From assembly GCF_006738645.1 (NCBI RefSeq), contig NZ_AP019700.1, positions 1,500,001-1,564,000 of the forward strand: a stretch of 64,000 nt of DNA. The letters run 5' to 3'. This DNA comes from Stella humosa. Its GTDB lineage: Bacteria; Pseudomonadota; Alphaproteobacteria; ATCC43930; Allostellaceae. Positions 37,876 through 41,586 of the stretch are shown piece after piece. The notes below the pieces were generated by a model. It ran no database searches. It was not told the origin of the DNA and was given only the letters and a program-made list of their open reading frames with translations. The translations under genes and the position numbers were made by a program. Position 1 is the first letter of the stretch. Every line of letters starts with the position of its first letter.

Positions 37876-38547
37876 TCAGCCCTCGTCCGTGCCGGCCCGC
37901 CGGTCGCGCAGGCGCCGGGCGATCACCGCGAAGGCGGCCGCGCGGTTGACGGCAGGGTCGGCCGACAGGGCGTCGGCCCGCAGCGTCTTCAGCAGCAGGA
38001 CCGCCGGGTCGGCCACGCGCCGGCAGCCGGCCGCGTCGGCCCGCACGAACCAGTCCATGTCGCAGCCCATGCCGAGCGTCGGGTCGAACGGGCCGACGCG
38101 GTCGAACAGCGCGCGCGGCGCCACCAGCGTCCCCGGCGTGCGCCCCAGGCGCGGCAGCCCGCGGGGACCGTCGATCGGCGTGCCGTCCGCATCGTCGGCC
38201 ACGAAGCGCAGGTGGGCGACGCCATAGGCGGTCTCGTCGGGGCCTGCGAGGTCGGCCGCCTGGCGGGCCAGTTTGTCCGGCATCCAGCGGTCGTCATGGT
38301 CGAGGAACGCGACCAGTCGGCCACGCGCCTCTGCCAGCGCCAGATTGCGGGCGTCGGCCAAGCCGCGGCCGGACTGTTCAACGACCCGGGCACCCCACTG
38401 CCGCGCGATCTCCGCCGTGCCGTCCGTCGACCGTCCGTCGACCACCAGCACCTCGTCCGGCTGGCGGGTCTGGGCGCGGATGCTGGCCAGCGCGCGCGGC
38501 AGCCGCAGGGCGCCGTCGCGCACGCAGACGACGGCGGTGATCGTCAC
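37876..38547 (-). CDS. Glycosyltransferase family 2
   Basis: 223 residues, GT-A fold. It opens with TAVVCVRDGALRLPRALASI and has the GRSTDGTAEIARQWG loop and the acidic triad motif VAFLDHDDRWMPDKL, where the D-x-D equivalent binds the nucleotide sugar. GMGCDMDWFVRADAAGC is the ED/xDW acceptor-side motif. The start overlaps the stop of the upstream GT2 gene (ATGA). It adds a sugar during surface-glycan assembly; donor and acceptor are unknown. Confidence 0.85.
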   Translation of the reverse strand: MTITAVVCVRDGALRLPRALASIRAQTRQPDEVLVVDGRSTDGTAEIARQWGARVVEQSGRGLADARNLALAEARGRLVAFLDHDDRWMPDKLARQAADLAGPDETAYGVAHLRFVADDADGTPIDGPRGLPRLGRTPGTLVAPRALFDRVGPFDPTLGMGCDMDWFVRADAAGCRRVADPAVLLLKTLRADALSADPAVNRAAAFAVIARRLRDRRAGTDEG

Positions 38548-39251
38548 GGGACCGCCCCCGCGCGCCGCGCGCGCAGGGTCCGGGCAAGGATGACCGGCCA
38601 GCGCCGCAGATGATCGGCCGTCCGGACCGGCGGCTCCATCTTGTCCATCAGCGATCCGTGCCCGCGCCGGTAGTAGAGGGTGACGTCGGGCAGGGTCGTC
38701 CGCACCGCGCCGGCGGCACGCGCCCGGACCCAGAAGTCGACGTCCTCGGCGGTGCGCATGGTTTCGTCGAAGCCGCCCAGGCGGGCGACCAGTTCGCGCC
38801 GGAAGAGGGCGCTGCCCAGGTTGAAGCCGCCCGCGACCTTGCCGAGAAGGGTGGCGGGACCGTCCGTTTCGCCCTCGACGGTGTCCCGGAATCGCCGCAC
38901 CTGGCCGTGCGCGGCCTCGCAGGCGGGGTCGGCCTCGATCGCGGCCAGCAGGATGGCCAGGCTGTGCCGCGGCCAGATGTCGTCGGCGTCGAGGAAGGTC
39001 ACGAAGCGCCCGCGGGCGACGGAAAGCCCCCGGTTGCGGGCGGCGGACGGCCCCTTGTTCGCTTGGTGCAACAGGACGACCGGCAGGGCGGCACGGGACA
39101 GCCGCGTGGCCGGGTCGTCCTGCGACCCATCATCGACCGCGATGACCTCGATATCGTCGATCCCCTGGCGGGCGATGCTGGCGATCGCCTCCAGCAACAG
39201 GTCGCCCGCGTCGAAGATCGGCACGACGACGCTCACCAGCGGGTGGGCCAT
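38544..39251 (-). CDS. Glycosyltransferase family 2
   Basis: 235 residues. SVVVPIFDAGDLLLEAIASI, VIAVDDGSQDDPATRL and VTFLDADDIWPRHSL are the GT2 core motifs, with RTAEDVDFWVRARAAG as catalytic-base region. It lies 9 bases after the PqqD-like gene and is coupled to the next GT2 gene by an ATGA overlap. The two share layout but differ in sequence, so they likely make different linkages. Confidence 0.87.
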   Translation of the reverse strand: MAHPLVSVVVPIFDAGDLLLEAIASIARQGIDDIEVIAVDDGSQDDPATRLSRAALPVVLLHQANKGPSAARNRGLSVARGRFVTFLDADDIWPRHSLAILLAAIEADPACEAAHGQVRRFRDTVEGETDGPATLLGKVAGGFNLGSALFRRELVARLGGFDETMRTAEDVDFWVRARAAGAVRTTLPDVTLYYRRGHGSLMDKMEPPVRTADHLRRWPVILARTLRARRAGAVP

Positions 39252-39260
39252 GCGGGGCTG

Positions 39261-39713
39261 CTAGGTCGTCTTGGCCGCCGGGTGCGGCCAGCCCAGGTCG
39301 TCGACCTCGTGGATGGGGTCCAGCGTCAGCAGGTCCTGCATCTCGGTGAAGCGCTCGACCACCGGGGGCGTGAAGGGCGTACCGGCCGCCGGCAGCAGGG
39401 CGGAACGATCGGCGGTGATCGCCGGTGGCTGGTCCGATCGCAGCAGCAGGTCGTCGGCCACCAGCGCTTCGACCAGGCCGGCCACCGCCGCTGCGGCTTC
39501 GGCCGGCGCCAGCCCGTACTGCTCTTGGGTCCACTGGGTTACCTGCGCGATGGATCGGCCGCCCTCGATGCCGGCCCACATGGCCGCACCCGTGCCGCGC
39601 AGGCTGAAGTAGAAACCGCTGACCGTGTTCACCAGAACCACCTCGCCGTCGATCACGTCATGGGCGATCAGGTTGCGGTTGATGTGCAGGTAGCAGGGTG
39701 GTTCGGCGGTCAT
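39261..39713 (-). CDS. PqqD-like (RRE-fold) protein with acidic/aromatic C-terminal tail
   Basis: 150 residues from ATG 39713, with AGGAG 12 bases upstream. A GTG at 39761 overlapping the GT4 stop would add MTAEPRPPTGPQEPCR and duplicate the MTAEP start. Residues 8-92 fit a PqqD/RRE winged helix (INRNLIAHDVIDGEVVLVNT, FYFSLRGTGAAMWAGIEGG, LVEALVADDLLLR). The tail at 121-142 (FTEMQDLLTLDPIHEVDDLG then WP) looks like a separate conserved peptide. PqqD-type domains bind leader peptides of RiPPs, but no pqq or radical-SAM gene is here. Role unknown. Confidence 0.66.
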   Translation of the reverse strand: MTAEPPCYLHINRNLIAHDVIDGEVVLVNTVSGFYFSLRGTGAAMWAGIEGGRSIAQVTQWTQEQYGLAPAEAAAAVAGLVEALVADDLLLRSDQPPAITADRSALLPAAGTPFTPPVVERFTEMQDLLTLDPIHEVDDLGWPHPAAKTT

Positions 39714-39757
39714 GCGGCAGGGCTCCTGCGGGCCTGTTGGGGGGCGCGGCTCGGCCG

Positions 39758-41215
39758 TCACGATAGCGGGTCCGGCGGTACGCCGTCATCGCGCATATTG
39801 GCCAGGCGGCGGCCGGCACGCTCAACTGCGGCACCGGCTGCGATCGCGGCGGCGAGTTCGCGGGCCGCTGCCGGGATGCGACCTTCGGCGGCCAGCACAA
39901 GACCGGTCCAGTAGCGCAGCATGCCGTCGTCGGGCATGCCGTTGCGCTGGTGGAACAGCCCGCCCTCGACCCGCACCTGATCGGCGGGCAGGGCGGCGAT
40001 CGCCGCATCGGCCCGATCGTCGCCCGCGAGGCTGTCGCGAAACGCCTTTCCCCATGGCCCGAGCGCGTCGGCGAAGCGCCGGGCGGCCGGGAAGGGTGGT
40101 GGCGGCTCGGGCGACGCCGGCCGTGTCCGGACAGGGCCGGCGGTGACCTCGCCCAGGATGGCGGCGAGGCGGGCGCAGGTGCGCCCGGCATCGAACTCGC
40201 GGCGCGCGTGGCGGGCCGCACCGGCCCCCAGGCGAGCGCGCAGCCCGGGGTCGGCATGCAGCAGGGCCAGGGCCGCGCCGTACTCCCGCTCCGGCACGAC
40301 CAGGCCGGACACCTCATGCTCGACCATGGTGGGAATGCCGCCATATGGCAGGATCACCGGTGGCAGGCCGGCGGCCATCGCCTCCTGCAGGCTACGGTCG
40401 CTGCTGGAATAGGTGTCGGGCGCCAGCGGATAGCCGAACACGTCCGATCCGGCCAGGACCGGCACCAGGTCGCGGACATGGCCGCGCAGGTCGAACCGTT
40501 CCGGCGCGCCGGCTGCGGTGGCCGCCGCCGTCAGGGCGGGTTCCCCGCCACCGCCGCCGCAGAGGACGAAGCGGGCGTCTGGCAGGCCGGCCGACAGCGA
40601 CAGCGCGACGAAGTCCGGGTGGATCTTGCCGGGCCCGACAGTGCCGACATAGGTGACGACGAAGCCCGCATGGGGCACCGGCGCCAGCCCTTGCAGCGGC
40701 TCCAGGTTGGCCGGCGCGCGCAGCACCTCAGCCGGCGCCGGCAGCGTCATGCCGGCGAGTGGCGGCAGAAGGGCGGTGCAAGGCGCGGTCAGCAGGATGC
40801 GGTCGGCCCGCCGGGCGAGCGCTGGCGGCACGACCTGCGGCGGGGCGGTGCCGGCCACCTGGATCCAGGCGACCACGGGCACCCGCGGCGGCAGGCGCTC
40901 GATGAAGGCCAGCGAGGCCGGCGTCGTCCAGAAGTGCAGCAGGATCACGTCCGTCGCGGCCAGTGCGGCTGTCTCGGCCGCCGGGCCGGGCAGGAGGGCG
41001 ACGCCGCCGCGTGCCAGCTCGATCCGGATGAGGGGCGAGACGATGGCTTCCAACGGCAGGACCCGGTGCTCGGCCGCGAACCCGGCCGCCTGGAGGCGAC
41101 GGACGGTGGTGGCCATCGAGCCGGCGGCCCCGCCCGCGCGCAGATGCGGGATGACGTGGAGGATGCGCAGCGCCCGGCTGCCGCATGAGTTGCCGCCGGA
41201 TGAGTCGATTGCCAT
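39758..41215 (-). CDS. Glycosyltransferase family 4 (GT-B fold)
   Basis: 485 residues. The N-terminal Rossmann half starts LRILHVIPHLRAGGAAGSMATTV. The C-terminal donor half has VVTYVGTVGPGKIHPDFV, DLRGHVRDLVPVLAGSDVFGYP, and the E-x7-E motif region SSDRSLQEAMAAGLPPVILPYGGIPTMVEHEVSGLVV. A helical tail of about 110 residues extends beyond the GT core. Its TGA can overlap the upstream-most GTG of the PqqD-like gene. It is first in the minus-strand GT4-PqqD-GT2-GT2 operon. Confidence 0.84.
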   Translation of the reverse strand: MAIDSSGGNSCGSRALRILHVIPHLRAGGAAGSMATTVRRLQAAGFAAEHRVLPLEAIVSPLIRIELARGGVALLPGPAAETAALAATDVILLHFWTTPASLAFIERLPPRVPVVAWIQVAGTAPPQVVPPALARRADRILLTAPCTALLPPLAGMTLPAPAEVLRAPANLEPLQGLAPVPHAGFVVTYVGTVGPGKIHPDFVALSLSAGLPDARFVLCGGGGGEPALTAAATAAGAPERFDLRGHVRDLVPVLAGSDVFGYPLAPDTYSSSDRSLQEAMAAGLPPVILPYGGIPTMVEHEVSGLVVPEREYGAALALLHADPGLRARLGAGAARHARREFDAGRTCARLAAILGEVTAGPVRTRPASPEPPPPFPAARRFADALGPWGKAFRDSLAGDDRADAAIAALPADQVRVEGGLFHQRNGMPDDGMLRYWTGLVLAAEGRIPAAARELAAAIAAGAAVERAGRRLANMRDDGVPPDPLS

Positions 41216-41313: not shown

Positions 41314-41586
41314 ATGATCAAGACCGCAATCGCCGCCGCCCTGCTTTCCGTGACCTTCGCCGGTGCCGCGCTGGCCTCGATGGACGAGGGCAAGTTCGGC
41401 CAGATGCTTGACGACGGCAAGTTCGGGCAGAACACGGACGAGGGCAAGAAGGGCTCGAACATGGACGAAGGCAAGTACGGCCGGAACCTCGACGACGGCA
41501 AGTTCGGCGCCGACATGGATGAGGGCAAGAAGGGCGCGAACCTCGACGAGGGCAAGCTCGGCGCCAACGGCATGGACAGCTTCTGA
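41314..41586 (+). CDS. Exported nonapeptide-repeat protein
   Basis: 90 residues. A clear signal peptide (1-21, cleavage after ALA) is followed by seven tandem 9-residue repeats (23-85) and a GMDSF end. The repeat consensus is hydrophobic-D-(E/D)-G-K-x-G-x-(N/D), for example MDEGKYGRN and LDDGKFGAD. Glycines and the N/D fall at RTX positions 1, 4 and 6, but K replaces the second glycine. AGGAG stands 9 bases before the ATG. It is divergent from the GT4 gene inside the glycan island. No known family is recognised; a calcium-binding, matrix or wall-linked role is possible. Confidence 0.72.
   Translation: MIKTAIAAALLSVTFAGAALASMDEGKFGQMLDDGKFGQNTDEGKKGSNMDEGKYGRNLDDGKFGADMDEGKKGANLDEGKLGANGMDSF
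41380..41568 (+). repeat. Seven tandem 27-bp repeats
   Basis: The coding repeats of the exported protein form seven direct 27-base units sharing GACGAGGGCAAG or GACGACGGCAAG cores. They vary mostly in the sixth and eighth codons of each unit, which suggests selection on the protein pattern and not recent slippage alone. Confidence 0.85.

Follow-up and report, generated by a model that had tools for sequence, protein, structure and literature searches.

The gene at positions 39,261 to 39,713 on the minus strand of the window, that is, of the whole 64,000-nucleotide stretch analyzed here, encodes an RRE that may carry its own leader and core peptide as a C-terminal tail. In our preferred reading, to which we assign a probability of about 0.45, this RRE-tail protein belongs to an LPP- or lasso-like system whose leader and core are fused to the RRE, and whose core would act as acceptor or carrier for an HprK-like kinase, an NTP_transf_5 protein and short GT2 glycosyltransferases. 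The enzymes of the system are ordinary; what is unusual is the fusion of a leader and an invariant core to the RRE.

The RRE-tail gene and its operon

The window is part of a 5.83 Mb, single-contig alphaproteobacterial chromosome (G000). The relevant features are as follows.

39261..39713 (-): RRE-tail gene, 150 aa; likeliest start ATG 39713, GTG 39761 possible
39435..39695 (-): RRE (PqqD fold), residues 7-93; from PF05402 (residues 24-90), PDB profile search and model alignment
39375..39443 (-): variable linker, residues 91-113
39324..39374 (-): leader-like half of the tail, residues 114-130; called from its motif, its pLDDT and its likeness to lasso/LPP leaders
39285..39323 (-): core-like half of the tail, residues 131-143, LDPIHEVDDLGWP; near-invariant, modeled as disordered
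39758..41215 (-): GT4 glycosyltransferase, precedes the RRE-tail gene in its operon; PF13692, family present at 15/80 loci
38544..39251 (-): short GT2 glycosyltransferase, 235 aa; PF00535, GT2s present at 64/80 loci
37876..38547 (-): second short GT2 glycosyltransferase, 223 aa; PF00535
36885..37871 (+): GTx, glycosyltransferase-like; without Pfam match, family recurs at RRE-tail loci

The longest frame (39261-39761, minus strand) has 166 codons for amino acids, starting at a GTG that overlaps the stop of the upstream GT4 gene. The most likely start is nevertheless ATG 39713, because both orthologs from the genus Stella start there and an AGGAG lies upstream at the usual distance, GTG 39761 also being possible. 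The first-pass annotation, made from the letters alone, had drawn attention to two starts that share the sequence MTAEP; this carries no meaning, as the orthologs start at the second one and none repeats MTAEP. Its remark that glycosyltransferases adjoin the gene holds in the form of one GT4 and two GT2 genes on the same strand, in the order GT4, RRE-tail, GT2, GT2, with successive gaps of 44 bp and 9 bp and then an overlap of 4 bp, an order also kept in two relatives (L012 and L014). These GT4 and GT2 proteins are the only partners encoded at the window locus, which has neither kinase nor NTP_transf_5. The GTx family consists of a cluster from four RRE-tail loci, plus L110. In line with the first pass, no pqq or radical-SAM gene was recognized, either on inspection of the window gene list or among recurrent neighbors.

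Close by, at 41314-41586 on the plus strand, lies a gene whose small secreted product is built from octapeptide repeats ([D/E]xGKxGxN), with relatives in L012 (at about 10.9-11.2 kb) and L014 (5221-5475). We considered this protein as a substrate and rejected it, because its family is also carried by G003, which lacks an RRE-tail gene. The family has seven to nine matches per genome in four Stella genomes; 37 other relatives gave no match.

The RRE is of the lasso-B1 type

Judged from sequence profiles and a structural model, the RRE of the window protein belongs to the lasso-B1 type. First, the protein matches PF05402 (PqqD) with 44 bits against a cut-off of 23.4. Second, the nearest PDB relatives are the lasso B1 proteins TbiB1 and TfuB1 (TbiB1, E 7e-18 with the family profile). 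Third, the model aligns with 5v1v, 5v1u and 6jx3 at Z scores of 12.8, 12.6 and 11.9, respectively. Of 76 members, 74 are matched by the NCBIfam model for lasso PqqD, the window protein scoring far below its cut-off. The PqqD-type domain that had been proposed is confirmed, and can be specified as a peptide-binding RRE of the lasso kind.

A conserved tail with leader-like and core-like halves

The layout of domain, linker and tail is as first described, the tail being VERFTEMQDLLTLDPIHEVDDLGWPH. Relatives were fetched by scanning GTDB contigs with a pattern inside this tail (residues 129-137). At least 263 contigs encode RRE-tail relatives, of which 80 were retained for analysis, from Cyanobacteria, Chloroflexota, Acidobacteria, Bacteroidetes, Ignavibacteria, Gemmatimonadetes, Rokubacteria, Eisenbacteria, Deltaproteobacteria, Nitrospirae, planctomycetes, Lentisphaerae, Alphaproteobacteria and Comamonadaceae; the relatives thus span more than ten phyla. 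No relative was found on viral contigs, and plasmids gave a single one, from the cyanobacterium Crinalium. Since the tail is present in orthologs, in paralogs and in relatives on so many contigs, it is not a product of chance.

The set is biased by the fetch pattern, so a second measurement of conservation left out columns 129-137. The unseeded tail has 2.92 bits per column, against 1.89 for the RRE, 0.67 for the linker and 0.96 after GWP, the difference being significant relative to both linker (p = 6e-8) and RRE (p = 9e-4) under the assumption of independent columns. The expectation that the tail would be more conserved than the linker is therefore borne out on columns that the search did not select. 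The core-like half reaches 3.7 bits per column, its residues 131-137 being pattern-seeded, and follows the near-invariant consensus LDPIH[ED]VDxxGWP. Residues D132, P133, H135, V137, G141, W142 and P143 are unchanged in all 76 aligned sequences; G141, W142 and P143 among them, as well as D124 and M125, which are conserved at more than 90%, lie outside the fetch pattern.

The leaders recognized by discrete lasso and LPP RREs have the motif [Y/W]xxPx[L/V/I/F/A] (PMC13381572), an example being YTAPQL of TfuA in 6jx3. In 75 of the 80 homologs, residues 114-119 fit aromatic-x-x-P-x-[L/V/I/F], FTPPVV in the window protein. AlphaFold, run with 76 sequences, places residues 111-120 at a mean pLDDT of 95, residues 120-122 forming a strand and 125-129 a helix; from residue 131 onward pLDDT falls to 54-58, and the core-like segment is modeled as disordered. 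The structure search listed no match for the tail and is uninformative about it.

The spacing within the tail would also fit the leader/core register of LPP and lasso precursors. The phosphorylated Ser of LPP lies 18 residues past the Tyr of YxxPxVLxHQxIxFETxxS (PMC13381572), and the residue 18 past F114 is the invariant D132. Likewise, lasso leader position -2 (Thr or Ile) lies 15 past the Tyr (PMC10368454), a place taken here by the invariant L129. LDPIH[ED]VDxxGWP lies in the place that a lasso/LPP precursor core would take. Hydroxyl residues are not a fixed part of it: 11 of 80 homologs have no Ser or Thr in residues 122-143, and three of the homologs (L054, L076 and L083) have none through the C-terminus, though a kinase is encoded in the locus. 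A conserved Thr as the kinase site was considered and discarded, as homologs from kinase-bearing loci have A, V, R, D, G or N in place of T123.

Within the genus, two orthologs with 57-59% overall identity have tails that read FTEM[QM]DLLTLDPIHEVDDLGWPH. The three Stella genomes with an RRE-tail gene also encode paralogs, with the tail FTDVQELLALDPVHDVDEVGWP or near it, in which the F and the P of the [F/Y]xxPxL motif have been lost. In all three, the paralog gene is followed by an HprK-like kinase, the sole member of its kinase family found per genome, and then by two or three GT2s. A fourth genome of the genus has no RRE-tail match and no NTP_transf_5. The Stella NTP_transf_5 genes were not accepted as members of the system, since they lie about 2 Mb off with no RRE or kinase adjoining; at these loci (L112:8034-12881 and L113:7473-12400), two NTP_transf_5 genes flank a CobW-like GTPase and a trypsin-like protein.

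Partner genes of the RRE-tail family

Across the 80 loci, the HprK-like kinase is found at 63, short GT2s at 64 (146 genes), the NTP_transf_5 protein at 49 and an MsbA-like ABC exporter at 24. A kinase, GT2 or NTP_transf_5 gene that directly follows the RRE gene does so within 50 bp in 53 of 63 cases. Further neighbors are sulfotransferases, epimerases, methyltransferases, SMP-30 and SDR proteins, and by gene content the neighborhoods appear surface-glycan-like. Tabulating the neighbors, as had been proposed, thus shows relatives consistently accompanied by short GT2s. As to a partner on which the tail might dock or that might modify it, co-occurrence favors the kinase at least as much as the GT2 and GT4 proteins, so that the suggested system of an RRE and sugar transferases is supported in part.

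The most faithful partner of the RRE-tail protein is the HprK-like kinase. In 194 cyanobacterial genomes, chosen regardless of the tail, strong matches to the kinase profile and matches to the tail profile fall in an identical set of nine, where the two share a contig and lie 0.1-6 kb from each other; PF05402, by comparison, has 63 places in 38 genomes. A marginal tail match in one more genome (G131) comes without an RRE gene. Among 14 genomes checked because the fetched locus showed no kinase, 11 encode it elsewhere, often 10-20 kb off on that contig, one has a weak match only and two have none. The tail is retained in G274 and G275, where no kinase was found. The kinase keeps its P-loop, and H203, K224, D241, D242 and K288 are conserved at 95-100%. 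Its model has the HprK/PEPCK fold (Z 14.1 to HprK 1ko7 over 134 residues, Z 18 to PEPCK), and its matches to Pfam Hpr_kinase_C are below the gathering score.

Several loci have arrangements of their own. The kinase is fused to one GT2 (L059, L090, L054) or to two (L045, L071). In genomes that we tentatively call Gastranaerophilales-like, the kinase carries a C-terminal fused RRE and a leader-like stretch, with no core (L109:5778-7307 and L107:5708-7234); the PF05402 match of this fused RRE is below cut-off, and the separate RRE-tail gene beside it keeps the core in an extended tail (GWTPEKDSIGYTKEET). In four Chloroflexota loci (L021, L022, L025 and L032), the RRE-tail gene adjoins an SsuABC-like uptake system with a solute-binding protein, L021 and L032 encoding in addition an AMP-binding protein of 916-921 aa. 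G168, from the cyanobacterial phylum, has eight PF05402 matches on two contigs (C12 and C49), several in tandem frames of 315-328 aa.

Comparison with LPP and phosphorylated lasso peptides

The set of RRE, HprK-like kinase, NTP_transf_5 and MsbA-like exporter matches the tailoring cassettes of LPP and lasso peptides. As in the Paenibacillus lpp system (PMC13381572), there is a discrete RRE of the kind that binds a [Y/W]xxPx[L/V] leader, an HprK-like kinase, an NTP transferase and an MsbA-like exporter, with no cyclase, and lpp is likewise sited in capsular polysaccharide loci rich in glycosyltransferases. The phosphorylated lasso clusters (paeninodin, pseudomycoidin and Bsf; PMC9266682, PMC10368454) share the B1-type RRE, the ABC transporter, the HprK-like kinase with its His, Lys and Asp-Asp residues, and a nucleotidyltransferase, which has been linked to a hexose on the phosphate (PMC9266682). 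In these systems the HprK-like kinase BsfK phosphorylates its peptide with the help of the RRE BsfB1 (PMC10368454), and PsmN has been linked to the addition of hexose onto the phosphate (PMC9266682).

The precursors of LPP, one to three in number, are separate and vary in their cores, whereas the RRE-tail protein has leader and invariant core joined to the RRE; the LPP core has Ser at position 3, whereas the RRE-tail core has Asp-Pro at positions 2-3; LPP uses an SpI-type leader peptidase, whereas none was recognized among the commonest neighbor families here. In addition, GT2s are core members of RRE-tail loci, unlike in LPP, and LPP has been reported from Bacillota, whereas the RRE-tail system extends over many other phyla. 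Relative to the phosphorylated lasso clusters, RRE-tail loci show no sign of a macrolactam cyclase (a single one of the 1147 genes at the 80 loci has SGGxDS), no recognized B2 peptidase and no separate precursor. The peptidase look-up covered recurrent neighbor families and, for 74 operonic neighbors without assignment, their 25 commonest Pfam families; the former and the latter contain no SpI-type peptidase, and the 25 commonest families no B2 transglutaminase-like peptidase. No separate LPP-type precursor was found within about 7 kb of the RRE at the 80 loci, a search that a distant or highly variable precursor could escape. A tail-only precursor elsewhere was also rejected, since all strong tail matches lie in RRE-sized frames, bar one at a contig edge.

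The HPr-rel-A (TIGR04352/04353) and SynChlorMet (TIGR04248/04249) families likewise place a PqqD-like protein beside an HprK-like one; however, the window protein and its paralog score far below the cut-offs of these models, and TIGR04353 gives any match in just 7 of the 76 members. None of the NCBIfam models listed covers the tail. Neither a description of the tail motif nor a natural RRE-precursor fusion was found in the literature searched, most subscription papers being outside that search.

A proposed fusion of leader and core, and its alternatives

The mechanism that we favor can be put as follows. A lasso-B1-type RRE would carry leader and core at its C-terminus via a loose linker, and the [F/Y]xxPxL segment, as modeled, would bind its own RRE. 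From the register, LDPIH[ED]VDxxGWP would then be held out to the HprK-like kinase at the distance at which lasso and LPP systems present their cores. The core may be the acceptor or carrier on which kinase, NTP_transf_5 and short GT2s build a phosphate/sugar modification, and the MsbA-like transporter, where the locus encodes one, may export the product. With its groove filled in cis, the RRE would not be free to bring another leader. This reading is favored by a tail conserved above both linker and RRE, by a leader motif present in 75/80 homologs and ordered at high confidence, by an RRE nearest to leader-binding lasso B1 structures, by the spacing match to LPP and lasso precursors, by the enzymes shared with LPP/lasso cassettes, by the joint occurrence of tail and kinase in cyanobacteria, by the occurrence of the tail only on RREs with no other precursor candidate near, by the kinase-GT2 fusions, and by the retained catalytic residues and HprK/PEPCK fold of the kinase. 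Against the core as substrate stand the lack of a conserved Ser/Thr, with three kinase-locus tails devoid of any; a core that hardly varies, unlike most RiPP cores; the absence of a recognized leader peptidase; a window locus without kinase and NTP_transf_5; Stella paralogs without the F and P of the motif; and 3 of 14 genomes without a strong kinase match.

Almost as likely as a substrate or carrier, and with appreciable odds of its own, is a tail that serves as a docking element. The RRE-tail protein would then be a scaffold or activator whose core motif sits as a pseudosubstrate in the kinase or another constant partner, with Asp standing where Ser would be, the true acceptor being a sugar, a lipid or an unlinked peptide. 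A core that is invariant without a conserved hydroxyl residue would fit docking, as would strict co-occurrence with one kinase family; the kinase-fused RRE lacks the core, as if it were unneeded once the RRE is attached, and the glycosyltransferases and sulfotransferases nearby suggest a glycan product. Yet the tail persists in the two genomes without a detected kinase, and the separate RRE-tail protein beside the kinase-RRE fusion still has its core. Moreover, an RRE with a cis-occupied groove would recruit no other leader, and the match in leader-core register would be needless.

We regard it as unlikely that the RRE binds a separate, unlinked precursor whose leader displaces the tail as an autoinhibitory lid. 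The tail does have the same type of motif as such leaders, and precursors encoded far away would escape a neighborhood search. However, no conserved small ORF was found within about 7 kb at the 80 loci beyond near-identical loci, leader motifs in the small ORFs near the loci show no excess (74 against 63 expected from shuffling, range 47-77), and a lid would not need an invariant LDPIHEVDxxGWP. Finally, a plain chaperone of the PqqD family whose tail does nothing in particular would account for the PF05402 match, but is highly improbable given an RRE nearest to lasso B1 rather than to PQQ PqqD, a window gene list in which no pqq or radical-SAM gene was seen, and a tail conserved across phyla with fixed partners, which contradicts it.

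Implications for the RRE-tail family

An RRE that seems to carry its own near-unchanging peptide, together with a kinase and sugar enzymes, may represent a widespread, undescribed route to a sugar-modified peptide. About a fifth of PF05402 proteins exceed a bare RRE without any other annotated domain (PMC12710340), and the RRE-tail family is a concrete, testable part of this gap. It also links the kinase and nucleotidyltransferase of phosphorylated lasso peptides and LPP, whose role has been described as unknown, to surface-glycan enzymes in many phyla. If the tail is the substrate, it would be a natural precursor fused to its own RRE, and the invariance of its core would suggest that the family shares one product or carrier, as opposed to an antibiotic that varies. 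More tentatively, the kinase, the NTP_transf_5 protein and the short GT2s may assemble a glycan or phosphoglycan on the invariant core as carrier or primer, in what would be a RiPP-like class, spread over more than ten phyla, with recognition element, leader and core in one chain; if so, it would be a peptide counterpart of a glycogenin-like primer.
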